Positions 5,023 through 23,441 of a stretch of DNA of 64,000 nt are shown piece after piece; the stretch's first letter is position 1, and each line of letters begins with the position of its first letter. Under the pieces are notes generated by a model that was not told the origin of the DNA, made no database searches, and was given only the letters and a program-made list of their open reading frames with translations. Source of the stretch: Crenalkalicoccus roseus (lineage in GTDB: Bacteria; Pseudomonadota; Alphaproteobacteria; Acetobacterales; Acetobacteraceae); the NCBI RefSeq assembly GCF_004761865.1, contig NZ_SJDM01000007.1, positions 62,001 through 126,000 of the forward strand, in the 5' to 3' direction. A program made the position numbers and the translations under genes.

Positions 5023-6308
5023 ACGACCTCTCGCCCGGCGCCACCGCGCCCGACTGGACCCGCTACGCCGAGGGCGCGCTGGTCGAGACCCATGCCGATG
5101 CCACCGTGCTCGCCGGCGCGCGCACGCCCTTCGTGGATTTCAATGGCGCGCTCGCCCAGGTCTCGCCGACCGATCTCGGCATCCACGCCGCCCGCGCGGC
5201 GCTGGCGCGCAGCGGCCTCGATCCCGCCCGGCTCGGCACCACCATCGCCGGCAACTGCATCCAGGCGAGCTACGACACGCTGTTCTTCGCTCGCCACATC
5301 GGCCTCTACAGCGGGATGCGGGACGACCGGCCGGCGCATGGCGTGCAGCGCCTCTGCACCACCGGCTTCGAGGCGATCGCCCAGGGTGCGCGCCTGACCA
5401 GCACCGGGCAGGTGGAGGCCGCGCTCTGCGTCGGCACCGAGAGCATGAGCCGCGCCCCGGTCGCCGCCTTCACGCTGCGCGGCGGCTTCGGCCTCGGCCA
5501 GGTCGAGTTCAAGGACATGCTGTGGGAGGCGCTGCTCGACACCGGCTGCGGCACCGCCATGGGCGGCACGGCGGAGAACCTGGCGAGGCTGCACGGCATC
5601 ACGCGCGAGGAGGTGGACGCCTACGCCGCCGAGACCTTCCGCCGCGCCGTGGAGGCCCAGGCCGCCGGCCGCTTCGCCGAGGAGATCGCCCCCGTCACCG
5701 AGCAGGTCTTCGAGGGGCCGGGGCTGAAGCCGCGCCGCCTCAGGCTGCCGCGCAAGGTGGCGGAGGTGGCGCAGGACAGCCACATCCGCCCGACGCCGGT
5801 GGAGGTGCTGGCGAAGCTCGCCCCGGTCTTCGGCGGCGTGCAGACGGGCGGCAACAGCAGCGCCATCGTGGACGGCGCGGCGGCGGTGGTGGTCACCACC
5901 GGCAAGGCGGCGTCCGGCGGCGCCGCGGGCGGCGCGGCGCCGCTCGGGCGCGTCGTCGCCTCGGCGGTCGCCGGCGTGCCGGCGGAGGTGATGGGCATCG
6001 GCCCGGTCCCGGCCACCATCGCCCTGCTGCGCCACCAGGGGCTTCGCGTCGAGGACATCGACCTGTTCGAGATCAACGAGGCCTTCGGCGCGCAGGTCGA
6101 GGCGGTGCGCCGGGCGCTCGGCGTGCCGCGCGAGCGGTTCAACGTGAACGGCGGCGCCATCGCCTTCGGCCACCCGCTGGCGGCGACGGGCGTGCGCTGC
6201 GTGCTCTCGGTGATGATGGAGCTGCGCCGGCGCGGGCTGAAGCGCGCCATCGCCGGGGCCTGCGCCGGGGGCGGGCAGGGCATGGCGCTGCTGGTGGAGA
6301 CCGCGTGA
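5019..6308 (+). CDS. Thiolase (acetyl-CoA C-acyltransferase)
   Basis: Thiolase-superfamily enzyme, 429 residues, which would cleave a 3-ketoacyl-CoA with CoA to release acetyl-CoA. The nucleophilic cysteine lies in VQRLCTTGFEAI (Cys113). The NEAF motif, the histidine of NGGAIAFGHPLAATG (near 385) and the second cysteine of GACAGGGQGMALL (near 415) are all present, so the catalytic set is complete. The start ATG at 5019 overlaps the ligase stop by 4 bases. The N-terminal 25 residues (a stretch around TAPDWTRYAEGALVE) precede the usual thiolase start and are not explained. The next gene overlaps by 4 bases, giving a tight ligase-thiolase-dehydrogenase operon. Confidence 0.9.
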   Translation: MNDLSPGATAPDWTRYAEGALVETHADATVLAGARTPFVDFNGALAQVSPTDLGIHAARAALARSGLDPARLGTTIAGNCIQASYDTLFFARHIGLYSGMRDDRPAHGVQRLCTTGFEAIAQGARLTSTGQVEAALCVGTESMSRAPVAAFTLRGGFGLGQVEFKDMLWEALLDTGCGTAMGGTAENLARLHGITREEVDAYAAETFRRAVEAQAAGRFAEEIAPVTEQVFEGPGLKPRRLRLPRKVAEVAQDSHIRPTPVEVLAKLAPVFGGVQTGGNSSAIVDGAAAVVVTTGKAASGGAAGGAAPLGRVVASAVAGVPAEVMGIGPVPATIALLRHQGLRVEDIDLFEINEAFGAQVEAVRRALGVPRERFNVNGGAIAFGHPLAATGVRCVLSVMMELRRRGLKRAIAGACAGGGQGMALLVETA

Positions 6309-7280: not shown

Positions 7281-7703
7281 CTACCTCCGCCCGGCCCGGG
7301 GGTGCAGCCACCGGGCGAGGCGGTGGCCGAGCCAAGCCGAGGCCAGCCAGAGGGCCGCCGATCCGGCCACATAGACGCCGGCGCGGCCGGTCGCGCCCGC
7401 CTCGAACAGGCGGAGGCTCTCCAGGCTGAAGATCGAGAAGGTGGTGAAACCGCCGCAGAAGCCGGCCATGACGAAGTGGCGCGCGGCCGGGGAGGGGAGG
7501 AGCGGCCCCCCCGGCCCCGCCAGCGCGGCGTAGAGCCCGATCAGGAAGGAGCCGGCGGCGTTGACCAGCAGCGTGCCCCAGGGAAAGGCGGGGCCGAGCA
7601 GCGCCAGCGCGCCGACCGAGCAGAGGTAGCGCGCCACCGAGCCGAGCGCGCCGCCCGCCGCTACCGCGGCATAGACCACCGCCTGCCTGCCCATGCGGCT
7701 CAT
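7281..7703 (-). CDS. crcB: Fluoride ion channel FluC/CrcB (second tandem copy)
   Basis: Small inner-membrane fluoride channel of the FluC/CrcB family, 140 residues, four predicted membrane helices. Family motifs are clear: GGALGSVARY near the N-terminus, FPWGTLLVNAAGSFLIGLY in helix 2 and the canonical GGFTTFSIFSLE, with the phenylalanines and serines that line the ion path in this family. The start ATG at 7701-7703 overlaps the stop of the upstream paralogue (ATGA); a second in-frame ATG lies 3 codons later. FluC channels work as antiparallel dimers, so this copy may dimerise with itself or with the neighbouring, more divergent copy. It exports toxic fluoride from the cytoplasm. Confidence 0.92.
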   Translation of the reverse strand: MSRMGRQAVVYAAVAAGGALGSVARYLCSVGALALLGPAFPWGTLLVNAAGSFLIGLYAALAGPGGPLLPSPAARHFVMAGFCGGFTTFSIFSLESLRLFEAGATGRAGVYVAGSAALWLASAWLGHRLARWLHPRAGRR

Positions 7704-8092
7704 CCTCCGAACAGCCGGGCGCCGGCGAGGTGGCCGGCTGCCACCGCCCCCAGGCACAGGGCGAGGGAGGCGAGGAGGTTGAGCAGGGCCCGCCGGCCTT
7801 CCCCCGCCTGTGCCAGGGTCAGGGTCTGCAGACTGAAGGAGGAGACGGTGGTGTAGCTGCCCAGAACCCCGACCGCGAGGGCAAGCCAGGCTCCACGCCA
7901 CTCCGGCGCGAGCCCCTCCGGGCGCAGCGCCACGGAGGACAGCAGGCCGATGGCCAGCGCGCCGGTGGCATTCACCGTCAGCGTGCCCCAGGGAAAGATC
8001 TCGCGCAGGCGCCGCGCCACGAGGCCCGAGAGCCAGAAGCGGGCACAGGCCCCGGCGGCACCGCCGAGCGCCACCGCCAGCAGCTCCGTCAT
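7700..8092 (-). CDS. crcB: Fluoride ion channel FluC/CrcB (first tandem copy, divergent pore motif)
   Basis: FluC/CrcB-family protein of 130 residues with the motifs GGAAGACARFW and FPWGTLTVNATGALAIGLL, four predicted membrane helices, and a start ATG at 8092. The motif around the ion path reads GSYTTVSSFSLQT, where the partner gene has GGFTTFSIFS: the first phenylalanine of the usual TTFSTFS is replaced by valine. It overlaps the downstream copy by 4 bases, so the two are made together. In organisms with two adjacent FluC genes the products can form a heterodimer; the divergence of pore residues here fits that arrangement but does not prove it. No fluoride riboswitch was recognised upstream. 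Confidence 0.88.
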   Translation of the reverse strand: MTELLAVALGGAAGACARFWLSGLVARRLREIFPWGTLTVNATGALAIGLLSSVALRPEGLAPEWRGAWLALAVGVLGSYTTVSSFSLQTLTLAQAGEGRRALLNLLASLALCLGAVAAGHLAGARLFGG

Positions 8093-8286
8093 GCCGCGCT
8101 GGCCCCGGGCGGGAAGAGCCGCGTCCGGCCGGGCGGCCGGCGCCGCTCCCCGGCCAGGTGCGCGCCGGCGCGCGGCCGGACATTGCTCATGCGTGCCCTC
8201 CACCCTGCTCTGCTGCGACGGGGCTGCATAGGCGGATCGCCTCGGGAGGTGAACGCCCCTGCCGTGGGTGGGAGGGAGACCCCCCT
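8093..8286. other. Gap upstream of the fluC pair with no recognised gene
   Basis: About 190 bases between the fluC start and the mgtE control region. It is very G+C-rich and holds short frames on both strands without ribosome sites or recognisable products. The fluC promoter must lie here or slightly to the right, but no clear promoter elements were seen. Confidence 0.4.
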
Positions 8287-8317
8287 TCATGACACGGCGA
8301 TGAACGCCGCCTCATGA
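8287..8317. promoter_or_regulatory. 31-base inverted repeat just upstream of the predicted mgtE promoter
   Basis: TCATGA (8287-8292), CA, CGGCG (8295-8299), loop ATGAA, CGCCG (8305-8309), CC, TCATGA (8312-8317). Both arms are exact, with a 2-base internal loop. It ends 3 bases before the TTGACC -35 element of the predicted mgtE promoter, a suitable place for a dimeric regulator. It could also be a terminator-like hairpin, but no gene ends into it. Confidence 0.4.
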
Positions 8318-8320
8318 GGC

Positions 8321-8349
8321 TTGACCCACCGGCCGCTTCGCGCGATATG
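8321..8349 (+). promoter_or_regulatory. Predicted sigma70-type promoter of mgtE-mgtC
   Basis: TTGACC (8321-8326), 17-base spacer, GATATG (8344-8349). Transcription would start near 8356, leaving about 200 bases of leader before the mgtE ATG at 8557. The -35 match is good; the -10 match is partial, as is common in this base composition. Confidence 0.45.
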
Positions 8350-8409
8350 GCCTGCAAGCGCGCCGGGTCCGCCCGGCGCGCATCCCGTGTCAACCCCCTG
8401 GAGTGCCCG

Positions 8410-8496
8410 ATGGACGAGGCGAGCGGAAGTAGCCGCACGCATCACCAACGCCGCGCCGCCGCGCGGCGCCGGGCCCCGCGCGCGCCGATCGCCTGA
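8410..8496 (+). CDS. 28-codon upstream ORF in the mgtE leader (putative leader peptide)
   Basis: A short frame starting ATG at 8410, preceded by CTGGAG at a normal ribosome-site distance, and ending TGA at 8494-8496. The peptide is MDEASGSSRTHHQRRAAARR followed by RAPRAPIA, rich in arginine, alanine and proline. It does not resemble a known protein. Its coding sequence contains a perfect 7-bp hairpin (8453-8459 with 8463-8469) that a translating ribosome would melt, and its stop lies 4 bases before the structures over the mgtE ribosome site. This layout resembles the leader-peptide control of magnesium transporter genes in enteric bacteria. Function is inferred from position only; codon content alone cannot show that it is translated. 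Confidence 0.4.
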   Translation: MDEASGSSRTHHQRRAAARRRAPRAPIA

Positions 8497-8500
8497 CGAT

Positions 8501-8549
8501 CCGCCGCCTCCGTTCCGGCGCCCCGCGGCGGCGCCCCGAACCGGACGGA
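8501..8549 (+). promoter_or_regulatory. Competing hairpins over the mgtE ribosome-binding site
   Basis: The mgtE ribosome site (ACGGAG, 8545-8550) lies in the 3' arm of a stem: TCCGT (8509-8513) pairs with ACGGA (8545-8549) and CCGG (8515-8518) with CCGG (8541-8544), with one bulged T. An alternative stem pairs CCGCCGCC (8501-8508) with GCGGCGGC (8525-8532); it crosses the first, so the two exclude each other, and the second leaves the ribosome site free. This is a plausible translational switch, though G+C-rich DNA forms such stems by chance more easily. Confidence 0.4.
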
Positions 8550-8556
8550 GACGGTC

Positions 8557-9876
8557 ATGAGCGCCACCACACTTCCGACCGCCAAGGCGCCGCTGCCTGC
8601 CGAGGCGGCCGCCGCCCTGCACCCCGCCGACCTCGCCGCGCTGCTCGACCTGCGCGAGCCCGGAGCCGCCTGGGAGGTGCTGGCCGCCCTGCCGCTGGCC
8701 CGGCGGGCGGAGACCTTCGGCTACCTCTCGGCCGCCACCCAGGTGGCGGTGGCCGAGGTGGCCTCCCCGCGCGACCTCGCGGCCCTGCTGACCGCCATGG
8801 ATGCCGATGAGCGGGCCGATTTCTGGGCGCGCCTGCCCGAGGAATCGCGGGAGGCGCTGGCGCCCGCCCTCGCCGCCGCCGAGCGCGAGGACATCCGCAA
8901 GCTCGCCTCCTACCCGCCGGGCACCGCCGGGGCGGTGATGACGAGCGACTACGCCGTGCTGCGCCCGGAGATGGCGGCGCGGGAGGCGATCGAGGCGCTG
9001 CGCCGCCAGGCCCCCTCCAAGGAGACCATCCACGTCGCCTACGTGCTCTCGCCGCAGCGGCGCCTGCTCGGCACCGTCACACTCGAGGATCTGGTGCTCG
9101 CCCCGGCCGGGCAGCGCGTCGCCGAGATCATGCGCACCGACCCGCCTTCGGTTCGCGCCGAGGATCCGGCGGAGGAGGCGGCGCGGCTGGTCGCCCGCTA
9201 CGACCTGCCGGCGATCCCCGTGATCAACGGCGGCGATGCGATGGTCGGCATCGTCACCGCCGACGACGCGATGGACGTGGCCGAGGCCGAGGCGACGACG
9301 GACTTCCACAAGGCCGGCGGCTCGGCGAGCCTCGGCGTCACGCTGCGCGAGGCCACGACGGGCCTGCTCTACCGCAAGCGGATCGTCTGGCTGATCGTCC
9401 TGGTCTTCGCCAACATCTTCTCGGGCGCGGGCATCGCCGCCTTCGAGGACGTGATCGCGGCCAATGTCGCGCTGGTGTTCTTCCTGCCGCTGCTGATCGA
9501 CTCCGGCGGCAATGCCGGCAGTCAGTCGGCGACGCTGATGGTGCGCGCCCTCGCCACCGGGGAGGCCCGCATGGCCGACTGGGGCCGGATGCTGGGGCGG
9601 GAGGTCGTGGTTGCGGCGCTGCTCGGCGCCACCATGGCGGCGGCGGTCTCGATCCTCGGCCTGGTGCGGGGCGGGCCGGAGATCGCGGTGGTGGTGGCGC
9701 TGACCATGGTCTGCGTGGTGCTGGTGGGCAGCCTGGTCGGCCTCTCCCTGCCCTTCCTGCTGTCGCGCTTCGGCTTCGATCCCGCCACCGCGAGCGCGCC
9801 GCTGATCACCACCATCGCTGACGCCTCTGGCGTGCTGATCTACTTCGCCATCGCCTCGGCGCTGCTGGTGGGCTGA
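8557..9876 (+). CDS. mgtE: Magnesium transporter MgtE
   Basis: Mg2+ channel/transporter of the MgtE family, 439 residues, the usual length. Domain order matches the family: an N-terminal helical N domain (about residues 20-125; ALLDLREPGAAWEVLAALPL onward), paired CBS domains (about 130-255, including MTSDYAVLRP and IPVINGGDAMVGIVTADDAM), a connecting helix, and five membrane helices with the signature LIDSGGNAGSQSATLMVRAL and the C-terminal DPATASAPLITTIADASGV. In this family Mg2+ bound between the CBS and N domains closes the pore. The gene follows a long structured leader and is followed after 32 bases by an mgtC-family gene, forming a magnesium homeostasis pair. Confidence 0.95.
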   Translation: MSATTLPTAKAPLPAEAAAALHPADLAALLDLREPGAAWEVLAALPLARRAETFGYLSAATQVAVAEVASPRDLAALLTAMDADERADFWARLPEESREALAPALAAAEREDIRKLASYPPGTAGAVMTSDYAVLRPEMAAREAIEALRRQAPSKETIHVAYVLSPQRRLLGTVTLEDLVLAPAGQRVAEIMRTDPPSVRAEDPAEEAARLVARYDLPAIPVINGGDAMVGIVTADDAMDVAEAEATTDFHKAGGSASLGVTLREATTGLLYRKRIVWLIVLVFANIFSGAGIAAFEDVIAANVALVFFLPLLIDSGGNAGSQSATLMVRALATGEARMADWGRMLGREVVVAALLGATMAAAVSILGLVRGGPEIAVVVALTMVCVVLVGSLVGLSLPFLLSRFGFDPATASAPLITTIADASGVLIYFAIASALLVG

Positions 9877-9908: not shown

Positions 9909-10622
9909 ATGGAACTGCAGGAGGTGGCGCTGCGGCTCGCCGCGGCGCTCGCACTCGGCGCGCTGATTGGCGGCGAGCGGCAGTGGCGGCAGCGCATGGC
10001 GGGGCTCAGGACCAATGCCCTGGTCGCGATCGGCGCCTGCAGCTTCACCGTGTTCGGGCTGGTCACGCCGGGCGACGCCAGCCCGACCCGCGTCGCCGCG
10101 CAGGTGGTGTCGGGAATCGGCTTCCTCGGCGCGGGCGTGATCATGCGCGAGGGGCTGAACATCCGCGGGCTGAACACCGCCGCGACGCTGTGGTGCGCGG
10201 CCGGGGTCGGGGTGTTCTGCGGCGCCGGCGCCTATGGGGCGGCGGCGGTGGCGACGGCGCTGATCGTCGGCGCCAATCTCGGCCTGCGCCCCATCGTGCG
10301 CCTGATCAACCGCCAGCCCCAGGCGGGGGCGGAGATCGAGCACCTGTACCGGGTGACGGTGACCTGCAAGGCCGCCAACGAGGCGCATATCCGCGCCCTG
10401 CTGATGCAGGCGATCGCGGCTGGCGAAGTGCGGCTGAAGCGGCTGGACAGCGAGGATCTGCCGGCCGCCGAGGGGAGCGTGGAGCGCGTCGCCGTGACGG
10501 CGGAGCTGGTCTCTCCGGGGCGGGCCGAGGCGCTGCTCGAGGGCATCGTCGGGCGGCTCAGCCTCGAGCCCTCGGTCAGCCGCGCCGGCTGGGCGGAGGA
10601 GAACCCGCCCTCCGCCGGCTGA
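9909..10622 (+). CDS. MgtC/SapB-family membrane protein
   Basis: Inner-membrane protein of the MgtC/SapB family, 237 residues. The conserved N-terminal membrane domain is clear: [20 protein letters not shown], then [17 protein letters not shown] and [19 protein letters not shown] soluble C-terminal domain of about 90 residues follows (from [19 protein letters not shown]), as in full-length MgtC. MgtC proteins are linked to survival at low Mg2+ and restrain the F1Fo ATP synthase in Salmonella; the role here is inferred. The start ATG at 9909 lies 32 bases after mgtE, preceded by GGGGAGGCTGGGCG, so both genes are probably on one mRNA. Confidence 0.88.
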
Positions 10623-20660: not shown

Positions 20661-23441
20661 TCACGCTCCTGGCTGGCTGCACCCCTCCGCGGGCTGCTCC
20701 ACCCCGTCACTCTCCGCCTCCAGCCGCGCGGCGCAGTATTTGAAGCCGGGGATCCTTCCGGAAGGGTCGAGCTGCGGGTGGGTGAGCAGGTTCGCCGCCG
20801 CTTCCGCATAGGCGAAGGGGATGAACAGCATCTCCTCCGGCAGCCCGGGATCGGCGCGCAGCGTCAGCCGCACCACGCCGCGCCGCGTCACCACGCGCGC
20901 CGTCTCGCCGGGCGCGAGGCCGAGCCGCGCCAGCGTCGCCGGAGAGACGGAGACGGTCGGCGCCGGCTGCAGCGCATCCAGCACGCCCGCGCGGCGCGTC
21001 ATGGTGCCGGTATGCCAGTGCTCCAGCTCGCGCCCCGTGCTCAGCACGAAGGGGAACTCCGCATCCGGCGCCTCGCTCTCCGGCGTGAGGCCCGCCGGCA
21101 CCAGGCGGGCGCGTCCGGTCCCGGTGGGGAAGCGATCGGCGAAAACGATCGCCTCTCCCGGCGCGTCCGGCGCGGGGCAGGGGTAGGTGACGCTGCTCTC
21201 GCGCTCCAGCCGCTCCCAGGTGATGTTGGCGAGGCTCGGCATCGCCTGCGCCATCTCGGCGAACACTTCGCGCGGATGGGCGTAGCGCCAGCCGAGGCCG
21301 AGGCGGCGGGCGATCTCCACGATGATGGCGAGGTCCTGCCGCGCCTCGCCCGGCGGCGCCACGGCGGCACGCCCGATCTGCACCTGGCGGTTGGTGTTGG
21401 TGACGGTGCCCTCCTTCTCCGGCCAGGCGGAGGCGGGCAGCACCACATCGGCCAGCGCCGCCGTCTCGGTCAGGAACAGGTCCTGCACCACCAGATGGTC
21501 GAGCCGCGCCAGCGCCGCGCGCGCATGGGCGAGGTCGGGATCCGACATCGCCGGGTTCTCGCCCATGACGTACATGCCGCGGATCTCGCCGCGCTCCGCC
21601 GCCTGCAGGATCTCCACCACGGTGAGGCCGGGATCCGGCCGCAGCGCCGCGTCCCACAGCGCCTCCATCCGGGACCGCGCCGCGTCGTCGGTGGTGCGGC
21701 GGTAATCCGGCAGCATCATCGGGATCAGCCCGGCGTCGGAGGCGCCCTGCACGTTGTTCTGGCCCCTCAGCGGGTGCAGCCCCGCCCCCGGCCGTCCGAC
21801 CTGGCCGCAGAGCAGCGCCAGCGCGATCAGCGCCCGCGCGTTGTCGGTGCCGTGCACGGATTGCGACACGCCCATGCCCCACAGCACCAGCGCCGCGCGC
21901 GCCCGCGCGAACAGCCGCGCCACGCGGCGGATCTGCGCCGCCGGGACGCCGCAGAGCGGCGCCATCGCCTCCGGCGTCGCGCCCGCGACATGGGCGGCCA
22001 GCGCCGCGAAGCCGTCCACCCGCGCGGCGACGAATTGCCGGTCGTACAGCTCCTCCGCGATCACCACGTGCAGCAGCGCGTTGAGCAGCGCCACGTCCCG
22101 CCCGGGCGCGAAGCGCACCACCTCCCGCGCGAAGCGGTCGAGGCCGTTGCCGCGCGGATCCATGACGATCAGCGCCGCGCCGCGCGTCGCGGCGTCCTTC
22201 AGGTAGGTGGCGGCGACCGGGTGGTTCTCGGTCGGCCGCGCGCCGATCACCAGGATCACGTCGGACTGCGCGGCGGCGGTGAAGGGCGCGGTGACGGCGC
22301 CGGAGCCGATCCCTTCCAGCAGCGCCGCGACGCTCGCCGCGTGGCAGAGCCGCGTGCAGTGGTCCACGTTGTTGGTGCCGAAGCCGGTGCGCACCAGCTT
22401 CTGGAACAGATAGGCCTCCTCGTTCGAGCCCTTGGCCGAGCCGAAGCCCGCAAGCGCGTCCGGCCCATGCGCGTCGCGGAGGGCGCGCAGGCCCGAGGCG
22501 GCGCGATCCAGCGCCTCCTCCCAGGACGCCTCGCGGAATTTCGCCCGCGCGGCGCGTGGATCGAGGCAGTCGGCCGGGTCCTTGGCGGCGCCCTCGATCC
22601 GCAGCAGCGGCCGCGTGAGCCTTTCCGGATGGCGGAGATAGTCGAAGCCGAACCGGCCCTTGACGCAGAGCCGCCCCTGATTCGCCGGCCCGTCGCGGCC
22701 CGTCACCTCGATGATGGCGCCGTCGCGGACGCGGAACTCCACCTGGCAGCCGACGCCGCAATAGGGGCAGACGCTCGCCACCGCGCGCTCGGCCGGCGCG
22801 CCGCGGTGGCCGCGCGCGTCCAGCACCGAGGCGGGCAGCAGCGCGCCGGTCGGGCAGGCCTGCACGCATTCGCCGCAGGCGACGCAGCTCGACTCTCCCA
22901 TCGGGTCTTCGAGGTCGAACGCCACCCGCGTCGCCATGCCGCGCCCGGCGAGGCCGATGACGTCGTTGTGCTGCACCTCGCGGCAGGCGCGCTCGCACAG
23001 GCCGCACTGGATGCAGGCGTCGAGCTGCACCGCCATGGCGGGGTGGGAGAGGTCGGGCGCAGGCCGCGCCGGCTCGCGCGGGAAGCGCGAGGCGCTGACG
23101 CCGAGGCGTGCCGCCCATTGCGCGAACCCGCCCGTCGCGTCGCGCGGCTCGGCATCGGCGAGCAGCAGCTCGAACACCATGCGCCGTGCCGCCTGCGCCC
23201 GCGCGCTTGCCTCGCTGCGCACCACCATGCCCTCGCGCGGGGCGCGGATGCAGGAGGCGGCCAGCCCCCGCTCGCCCTCGATCTCGACCAGACAGGCGCG
23301 GCAATTGCCGTCCGGCCGATAGCCGGGGCGGGGCAGGTGGCAGAGATGCGGGATGGCGACGCCGGCGCGCCACGCCGCCTGCCAGATCGTCTCGCCCGGC
23401 GCCGCCTGCACCGCCGCGCCGTCCAGGGTGAAGCGGATCAC
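20661..23441 (-). CDS. fdsA: NAD-dependent formate dehydrogenase alpha subunit (molybdenum, FdsA type)
   Basis: Catalytic subunit of a soluble formate dehydrogenase (926 residues), oxidising formate to CO2. An N-terminal [2Fe-2S] domain comes first (IPHLCHLPRPGYRPDGNCRA, then CLVE), then [4Fe-4S] motifs CIQCGLCERACREV and CVACGECVQACP, then the molybdopterin domain with its own cluster CPYCGVGCQVEF. The molybdenum-ligand cysteine is in NNVDHCTRLCHAASVAALLE, so this is a cysteine, not a selenocysteine, enzyme. MGVSQSVHGTDNARA and the C-terminal molydopterin domain (FVLSTGRELEHWHTGTMTRR) complete the fold. GTG at 23439-23441 overlaps the upstream stop. FdsC/FdhD and FdsD, usually next in the operon, are not in this window. 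Confidence 0.93.
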   Translation of the reverse strand: MIRFTLDGAAVQAAPGETIWQAAWRAGVAIPHLCHLPRPGYRPDGNCRACLVEIEGERGLAASCIRAPREGMVVRSEASARAQAARRMVFELLLADAEPRDATGGFAQWAARLGVSASRFPREPARPAPDLSHPAMAVQLDACIQCGLCERACREVQHNDVIGLAGRGMATRVAFDLEDPMGESSCVACGECVQACPTGALLPASVLDARGHRGAPAERAVASVCPYCGVGCQVEFRVRDGAIIEVTGRDGPANQGRLCVKGRFGFDYLRHPERLTRPLLRIEGAAKDPADCLDPRAARAKFREASWEEALDRAASGLRALRDAHGPDALAGFGSAKGSNEEAYLFQKLVRTGFGTNNVDHCTRLCHAASVAALLEGIGSGAVTAPFTAAAQSDVILVIGARPTENHPVAATYLKDAATRGAALIVMDPRGNGLDRFAREVVRFAPGRDVALLNALLHVVIAEELYDRQFVAARVDGFAALAAHVAGATPEAMAPLCGVPAAQIRRVARLFARARAALVLWGMGVSQSVHGTDNARALIALALLCGQVGRPGAGLHPLRGQNNVQGASDAGLIPMMLPDYRRTTDDAARSRMEALWDAALRPDPGLTVVEILQAAERGEIRGMYVMGENPAMSDPDLAHARAALARLDHLVVQDLFLTETAALADVVLPASAWPEKEGTVTNTNRQVQIGRAAVAPPGEARQDLAIIVEIARRLGLGWRYAHPREVFAEMAQAMPSLANITWERLERESSVTYPCPAPDAPGEAIVFADRFPTGTGRARLVPAGLTPESEAPDAEFPFVLSTGRELEHWHTGTMTRRAGVLDALQPAPTVSVSPATLARLGLAPGETARVVTRRGVVRLTLRADPGLPEEMLFIPFAYAEAAANLLTHPQLDPSGRIPGFKYCAARLEAESDGVEQPAEGCSQPGA

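Follow-up and report, generated by a model that had tools for sequence, protein, structure and literature searches.

Which elements upstream of mgtE control this Mg2+ transporter gene in Crenalkalicoccus roseus (Acetobacteraceae, Alphaproteobacteria), and does a short open reading frame in the leader take part? The whole stretch of DNA analysed here, the window, is 64,000 nucleotides long. An earlier description of it, made from the letters alone (the sequence-only reading), had named an mgtE-mgtC pair behind a structured leader, and both gene identities were borne out by Pfam:

8557..9876, plus strand: mgtE (Pfam MgtE, MgtE_N and CBS)
9909..10622, plus strand: mgtC (Pfam MgtC and MgtC_SapB_C), in the same direction as mgtE

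A pair of adjoining CrcB/FluC fluoride-channel genes (7281-7700 and 7700-8092, minus strand) is divergent from mgtE-mgtC; no fluoride riboswitch of Rfam reaches the gathering score within the window. From crcB/fluC towards mgtE follow a dyad, a promoter-like site, a 5' hairpin, a GGAG, the upstream open reading frame (uORF), a 60-nt spacer and the mgtE ATG. The second mgtE of the same genome also has a uORF (MDDGSSR), and no such uORF precedes its CorA gene in the stretches scanned. The elements upstream of the uORF are:

8287..8317, no strand: inverted repeat of 31 bases, upstream of the promoter; a possible operator, outside the leader RNA
8321..8349, plus strand: promoter-like TTGACC-N17-GATATG, with TTGA[CT] at a like distance from the uORF in the Acetobacteraceae first-gene leaders examined
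8358..8381, plus strand: perfect 5' hairpin of 10 bp, close to where the transcript probably begins, missed in the sequence-only reading

The inverted repeat is near-perfect (CTTCATGA...CGGCG-N5-CGCCG...TCATGAGG) and faces the divergent crcB/fluC pair. It had been counted as part of the leader; it is present and folds beyond chance (z -5.28, equalled by none of 200 shuffles), but relatives do not share it, as no copy was found upstream of mgtE in 16 of them (600 nt each; best match 7-10 mismatches of 22). A pattern search allowing up to 3 mismatches revealed it as the sole copy in its own genome. It is probably a separate DNA element and possibly an operator. The proposed promoter is found at its place, and TTGA[CT] lies at -74 to -89 of the uORF in all 13 Acetobacteraceae first-gene leaders examined, whose -10-like hexamers match 2-4 of 6 letters. 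The 5' hairpin folds with a z of -5.64, equalled by 0/200 shuffles. Hairpins resembling it are visible by eye in relatives, and over 59 loci structure upstream of the uORFs gives a weak general signal only (mean z -0.34).

The uORF is introduced by the following features:

8400..8403, plus strand: uORF ribosome site GGAG, assigned from sequence
8410..8496, plus strand: uORF of 28 codons, MDEASGSSRTHHQRRAAARRRAPRAPIA, conserved upstream of mgtE
8410..8436, plus strand: signature ATG GAC GAG GCG AGC GGA AGT AGC CGC, acidic residues and then AGT before AGN/CGN

The claim of a 28-codon uORF with its own GGAG ribosome site stands, and the uORF is conserved. The test applied required GAN as codon 2, AGT in frame at codons 3-8 with AGN or CGN as the next codon, an ORF of 9-60 codons and a position within 500 nt, and was devised after the pattern had been noticed in the same loci. 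Of 79 mgtE upstream regions 38 passed it, mostly those of Alpha- and Gammaproteobacteria, and of 1580 dinucleotide shuffles 12; the loci are related to one another, and counts over them are not independent. The loci, 80 in number, came from a scan of genome contigs, the 80th (L021) having no upstream DNA at the tested place, and Elioraea-type variants were left out of the 38. The other 41 upstream regions failed the test, and L011, L012 and L039 are close relatives without the uORF. Overlapping flanking stretches passed in 23 of 4298 cases; these stem from 12 ORFs, several of which are genuine additional copies (upstream of the second, tandem mgtE of L003-L006 and of a CBS-domain ORF in L077 and L079). 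Among later loci (L126-L183), an AGT-type uORF was found in 22 of 41 distinct upstreams by a looser test, run without shuffle control.

The MDEASGSSRTHHQRRAAARRRAPRAPIA peptide recurs before mgtE in Roseicella, where the uORF DNA is identical. Close forms precede mgtE in Caldovatus, Falsiroseomonas and Neoroseomonas, and a shorter relative, MDDGSGSxR, in Elioraea. Farther afield the uORF starts with MDLPSR in Pseudomonas and Halopseudomonas, MEPPSR in Halomonas, Franzmannia and Billgrantia, MDPSSR in Alcanivorax, MDLPSSR in Alishewanella, MDxPSR with a GTG start in Lysobacter, MDVPSSR in Hyphomicrobiaceae and MDDPSSR in Pelagibacterium, and with MPSDSxSR or MPGDSxSR in an MgtE subfamily that is more distant. 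Within the Acetobacteraceae a match to mgtE (E<=1e-60) occurs in just 33 of 397 genomes and 14 of 102 genera, and the window-type uORF start (<=1 mismatch) in 15 of the 397, some of these by chance. A GGAG, GAGG or AGGA was found before 40 of 67 uORFs, with no clear one before the remaining 27, among them the MPSDS/MPGDS type and Lysobacter.

Four loci (L003-L006, at ~5250-5500) carry a tandem second mgtE with a uORF of its own (MDDGSRR, MDEGSRR, MDEGSRW, MDEGSSR). These uORFs sit between same-strand genes, like mgtQ of Salmonella, and none of the four has TTGA[CT] in the preceding 130 nt. A like leader, with TTGACA, a uORF MDSCSSRV... and, by eye, a near-perfect hairpin hiding the Shine-Dalgarno (SD) sequence, is located in L018 (286-451) before a non-mgtE ORF of 69 residues without Pfam match. 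In Billgrantia (L077 at ~5545, L079 at ~6506) a uORF MEDPSSRLSKRG... lies ~350 nt before the CBS-domain ORF; the CBS domain of the L077 ORF was seen in a scan of the first 166 of its 352 residues. One more AGT-type ORF in the window, at 22556, is antisense inside a long ORF and was taken as chance.

The uORF start is conserved in its codons. When matches were defined by the peptide, the signature Ser was AGT in 56 of 66, whereas AGT makes up 94 of 1623 Ser codons (5.8%) in the mgtE genes concerned; in three of the ten non-AGT matches (L029, L037, L041) the following codon is an AGT Ser. Conversely, selection by AGT plus AGN/CGN alone gave an ORF in 60 of 150 mgtE loci, and although no acidic residue had been asked for, an Asp or Glu precedes the AGT in 59 of these 60 AGT-type uORFs. 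At residue 2, 35 of the 60 have an acidic residue and 17 have Pro; the window uORF has Asp2 and Glu3. The conserved letters are in-frame codons, and their codon distance from the start is variable. Judged by sequence comparison, codons are held at the uORF start beyond the residues alone, and the conserved part is the acidic-Ser-Arg start and not the Arg-rich tail. The AGT preference in G+C-rich genomes is a specific, unexplained constraint. In L046 and L051 (Methylomicrobium sp. wino1 and a MAG) a GTG-start uORF was read by eye, as MSQEGPSR in one locus and as MSQEGPTR in the second, so that the signature Ser is naturally replaced by Thr in one of them.

Conserved Ser and Arg codons, often with Pro ahead of them, could point to classical amino-acid attenuation, in which the leader would respond to the charging of tRNAs for Ser, Arg or Pro; proline sensing is described for the leaders of Salmonella mgtA and mgtC (PMC3641672). 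The signature, however, contains no run of Ser, Arg or Pro codons, its acidic residue is as constant as Ser-Arg, and the Acetobacteraceae have Gly, and often no Pro, at that place. We therefore regard this explanation as very improbable.

Between the uORF and mgtE, the ribosome site of mgtE lies within a hairpin:

8503..8555, plus strand: SD-hiding hairpin between the uORF stop and mgtE, from multi-locus folding
8547..8550, plus strand: mgtE ribosome site GGAG, in the 3' arm of the hairpin

The set for comparison comprised 67 loci drawn from 82 rows. Spacers over 90 nt were left out and ten rows were removed by eye: L081, L119 and L166 as duplicates, and L038, L043, L083, L087, L088, L090 and L106 as not this uORF, although L087, L090 and L106 would have fallen within the spacing limit. 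In 64 of the 67 loci the uORF stop and the mgtE start are 40-66 nt apart. Folding of the spacers gave a mean z of -2.58, against -0.20 for 174 control genes of the same loci (machine-picked by taking, in long open frames, the first ATG that has an SD), with z below -1.5 in 49/67 spacers and 31/174 control genes. Pairing of the SD beats shuffles (p<=0.05) in 34 of the 67. The arms have unrelated letters in different lineages, with the 3' arm being the mgtE ribosome site each time, as in GGTCAACTCC/GGAGTTGACC from Halopseudomonas, GGTAACTCCT/AGGAGTTACC from Pseudomonas and CTCTTATCA/TGATAAGAG from Alishewanella. When SD arms were exchanged among the loci, the 5' part of a spacer paired better with the arm of its own locus than with foreign ones (double-centred -5.29, permutation sd 0.41). 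This arm takes first place in 7 of 59 loci and is ninth in the window, as may be expected if a purine-rich SD is present in every arm.

The sequence-only reading had described two mutually exclusive stems here, one hiding the mgtE ribosome site and one freeing it. The hiding stem is present and upheld by the 67-locus comparison; in the window alone it does not rise above chance (8497-8560, z -0.67, 43/200 shuffles as good; 8505-8556, z -0.16, 80/200), the window spacer having a z of -1.1 in the multi-locus run and folding of the whole window leader being marginal (z -1.68, 9/200 shuffles). Single-sequence folding thus could not settle the SD stem, and the comparison with relatives did. In the hairpin predicted for the window the SD is inside the stem and the mgtE AUG just outside. 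The freeing stem at 8501-8532 is not above chance (z -0.64, 48/200 shuffles as good), and the competing partner is the uORF instead. Nor does the region of the proposed uORF-internal hairpin at 8453-8469 fold as such (8440-8480, z -0.47, 59/200 shuffles as good). A hairpin around the uORF stop, suggested by alignments of Lysobacter and Halomonas, was dropped, as 59 loci gave no general signal (mean z +0.28). A consensus fold of Acetobacteraceae spacers (MAFFT, 8 sequences) has 6 pairs, 2 with both sides changed, in an alignment that seems to misalign the sliding arms. The gammaproteobacterial consensus (10 sequences) has 13 pairs, 5 with both sides changed.

A structured leader of mgtE with the SD in its last stem might also be a metal-binding riboswitch to which the uORF is incidental, as proposed for the mgtE motif of Thioalkalivibrio, a gammaproteobacterium. 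This motif, SRC-65-1, has 32 examples, all from the one genus, and was called a strong riboswitch candidate; its last stem, P4, has the SD and the AUG at its base (PMC11109978). It resembles the present leader in its place upstream of mgtE and in the SD within the last stem, and the available part of its description mentions no uORF (PMC11109978). Against a riboswitch in the present case, the conserved letters are in-frame codons at a variable distance from the start, and the hairpin arms have unrelated letters between lineages, so that no common aptamer core is visible. Furthermore, Rfam gave no match in the window leader or in the mgtE leaders of 15 relatives: at gathering score the window has tRNA alone, and the 15 related loci only an asX1 sRNA in L032, over 2 kb from mgtE. 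Weak matches in the window leader to ROSE, P13, snoTBR17 and BASRCI414 were far below gathering scores and were rejected. The M-box (ykoK) Mg2+ riboswitch has no match at E<=10 in 8100-8600, in agreement with the earlier statement that the leader is unlike the M-box. We consider a riboswitch with an incidental uORF improbable. By its description, SRC-65-1 may be the same device as the present leader.

The competing partner of the hairpin was found within the uORF itself, where the sequence-only reading had missed it:

8453..8473, plus strand: strand of the uORF body (antisequester) that pairs with the spacer, in a predicted helix with 8514-8534

The complementarity of uORF body and spacer has a mean z of -1.43 over 60 loci, with p<=0.05 in 27 of them, against -0.11 and 3/60 in a control using 5' leader sequence instead of the body. 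The duplex of the window has a z of -3.28, reached by 0/200 shuffles. Own spacers beat swapped spacers (-6.37, permutation sd 0.65, the lowest of 5000 permutations being -2.39); the own spacer ranks first in 8 of 59 loci and fifth in the window. Six near-duplicate loci were left out of the pairing tests (stop-arm distance, uORF end, body and spacer, direct, and swap), and L070 was also left out of the direct SD-pairing and swap tests.

Since the uORF body is complementary to the spacer, a bare uORF should free the SD. Over 59 loci the predicted pairing of the SD is 0.74 with the body covered, 0.58 with it bare and 0.72 with shuffled bodies. This direct test, judged by k/n as mean z is inflated by small spreads, gave p<=0.05 in 25/59 loci, with 34/59 individually non-significant and p=0.09 for the window. 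For the window, the predicted SD pairing falls from 0.86 when all of the uORF is covered to 0.47 when it is bare; cover over 8410-8505 gives 0.78, and over 8410-8440 alone 0.49. With 8440-8496 covered and the uORF start bare it is 0.22, which is not an off state because the bare start pairs with the 5' arm of the hairpin; for the predicted off state the start must thus be covered as well, for instance by a second ribosome behind the first.

Sequence conservation in the Acetobacteraceae is consistent with such a role of the uORF as RNA. In a group of five members, uORF DNA is 0.89-1.00 identical to that of the window and mgtE 0.79-0.86, and the codon differences of L002 (6) and L014 (7) from the window uORF are all nonsynonymous. 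As the DNA is kept while residues change, the uORF outside its start seems to be constrained as RNA rather than as protein. The consensus fold of the five is the uORF-spacer helix itself (37 pairs, 4 with both sides changed), with an unfavourable covariation term (+2.44), so that conservation and not covariation carries this fold. The conserved peptide start might alternatively suggest a peptide that works in trans, the RNA pairing being incidental. With a length that varies from 14 to 43 residues, a tail that differs between lineages, and DNA unusually conserved in L002 and L014 even though every codon difference alters a residue, this appears extremely unlikely.

Taken alone, the 5' arm of the hairpin has no complementarity to the uORF (mean z -0.04 over 66 loci). 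With the uORF end it tends to pair only modestly (p<=0.05 in 13/59 loci); a second test gave 8/59 against 1/59 in the control, with p=0.73 for the window. In the Halomonas-type loci L050, L052, L064 and L065, GCGCCGGAGC at the end of the uORF is similar to GCGCCAAGGAGC, the SD arm of mgtE, and this is a possible second form of antisequester.

We consider it highly probable that mgtE has here a genuine, widespread, uORF-dependent cis-regulatory leader. The distinct translational control suggested by the sequence-only reading is supported by the conserved uORF and codons, the SD hairpin and the uORF-spacer complementarity, and is not confined to this lineage as had been supposed. Its best explanation, to which we give somewhat better than an even chance, is a leader-ORF translational attenuator of mgtE. 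The mRNA would start probably a few bases after 8349 and carry the 5' hairpin, the uORF and the hairpin with the mgtE ribosome site in its 3' arm. Ribosomes running through the uORF would block its pairing with the spacer, so that the local hairpin forms and mgtE is off. Ribosomes that drop off or pause at the acidic residues or the AGT-Arg codons would leave the uORF body bare; the body would then pair with the spacer, preventing the hairpin and leaving the ribosome site free, and mgtE would be on. This logic, in which a translated uORF turns mgtE off and a bare uORF body turns it on, is reasonably probable on the predicted structures. The acidic start may act like those of enteric MgtL and MgtQ, through an intrinsic destabilisation of the ribosome, with low Mg2+ as the presumed trigger. 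An importer should rise in low Mg2+, and the sign given by the drop-off logic therefore fits. By analogy with the enteric leaders, the chance that Mg2+ acting on the translating ribosome is the signal is about even.

MgtB is a P-type ATPase. The leader of its gene and that of mgtA offer the closest parallels: like these transporter genes, mgtE is preceded by a short putative ORF that has a ribosome site and carries acidic residues close to its start. Alternative RNA structures, of which one hides the downstream ribosome-binding site as in mgtQ, were found for mgtE by computation over many loci. In Salmonella mgtQ, Asp2 and Glu5 reduce translation of mgtQ itself and, via alternative stems, increase that of mgtB; when they are replaced, mgtQ is translated more and mgtB less, and removal of the start codon lowers mgtB (PMC8092293). 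The control is translational in mgtQ, as is predicted here, through stem-loops of which one hides the ribosome-binding site of the transporter gene (PMC8092293). As a difference, mgtQ encodes 8 residues and is situated between the mgtC and mgtB genes, and the available part of the report describes no AGT-Arg signature for it (PMC8092293). The present leaders also differ in the gene concerned, mgtE, and in that the first-gene leaders of the window family have a promoter-like site of their own. In mgtL of Escherichia coli, ribosome drop-off at EPDP in low Mg2+ raises mgtA (PMC11282234). The acidic start is shared, as is an effect through RNA conformation, here predicted; mgtL acts via Rho-dependent transcription termination (PMC11282234), whereas the visible switch of the mgtE leader is over the ribosome site. 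Transporter family and lineages differ as well.

The main rival of the attenuator is translational coupling, according to which a ribosome finishing the uORF opens the adjacent hairpin and turns mgtE on, and ribosome loss at the signature lowers mgtE. The uORF stop is <=15 nt from the 5' arm of the hairpin in 52 of 59 loci, near enough for a ribosome that terminates there to reach the arm, and this distance, which also fits hairpin opening with the opposite sign, is joined by the 40-66 nt spacers in 64 of 67 loci. The lowering of mgtB upon loss of the mgtQ start codon (PMC8092293) speaks for coupling too and, by analogy, is opposite to what the attenuator predicts for a uORF that is never translated. 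Yet coupling offers no reason for the complementarity between a uORF body and its own spacer, and the sign of coupling is wrong for a Mg2+ importer if low Mg2+ causes drop-off. We regard coupling by the terminating ribosome as rather unlikely.

The M-box (ykoK leader) is also a leader of Mg2+ transport, but an aptamer RNA; in Mycobacterium tuberculosis it controls a uORF (PMC12810186). A literature search by title and abstract start gave no paper on a leader ORF of proteobacterial mgtE among the matches listed, subscription journals and preprints being mostly outside its scope; the Mg2+ leaders among these matches were the M-box and the enteric mgtA, mgtC and mgtB leaders. As far as these searches show, the attenuator proposed here would be a variant of known leader ORFs that sense through the ribosome, and a uORF of proteobacterial mgtE is apparently unreported.

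More tentatively, and as a whole still unlikely, an ancient Mg2+ sensor based on the ribosome may be common to Alpha- and Gammaproteobacteria and stand before their mgtE genes. The sensor would be a nascent chain of 4-8 residues with Asp or Glu and a near-invariant AGU, wobble-read, before an Arg codon, the weak AGU codon-anticodon pair being itself part of it. The rest of the uORF would be free as protein because its job would be that of an antisequester RNA, and the "mgtE riboswitch candidate" of Thioalkalivibrio would be the same uORF device; these points belong to one joint and doubtful proposal. If it is right, one short codon signature would explain many mgtE leaders at once, would predict which genomes sense through the ribosome, and would offer a test of whether a proposed riboswitch candidate is a leader ORF.
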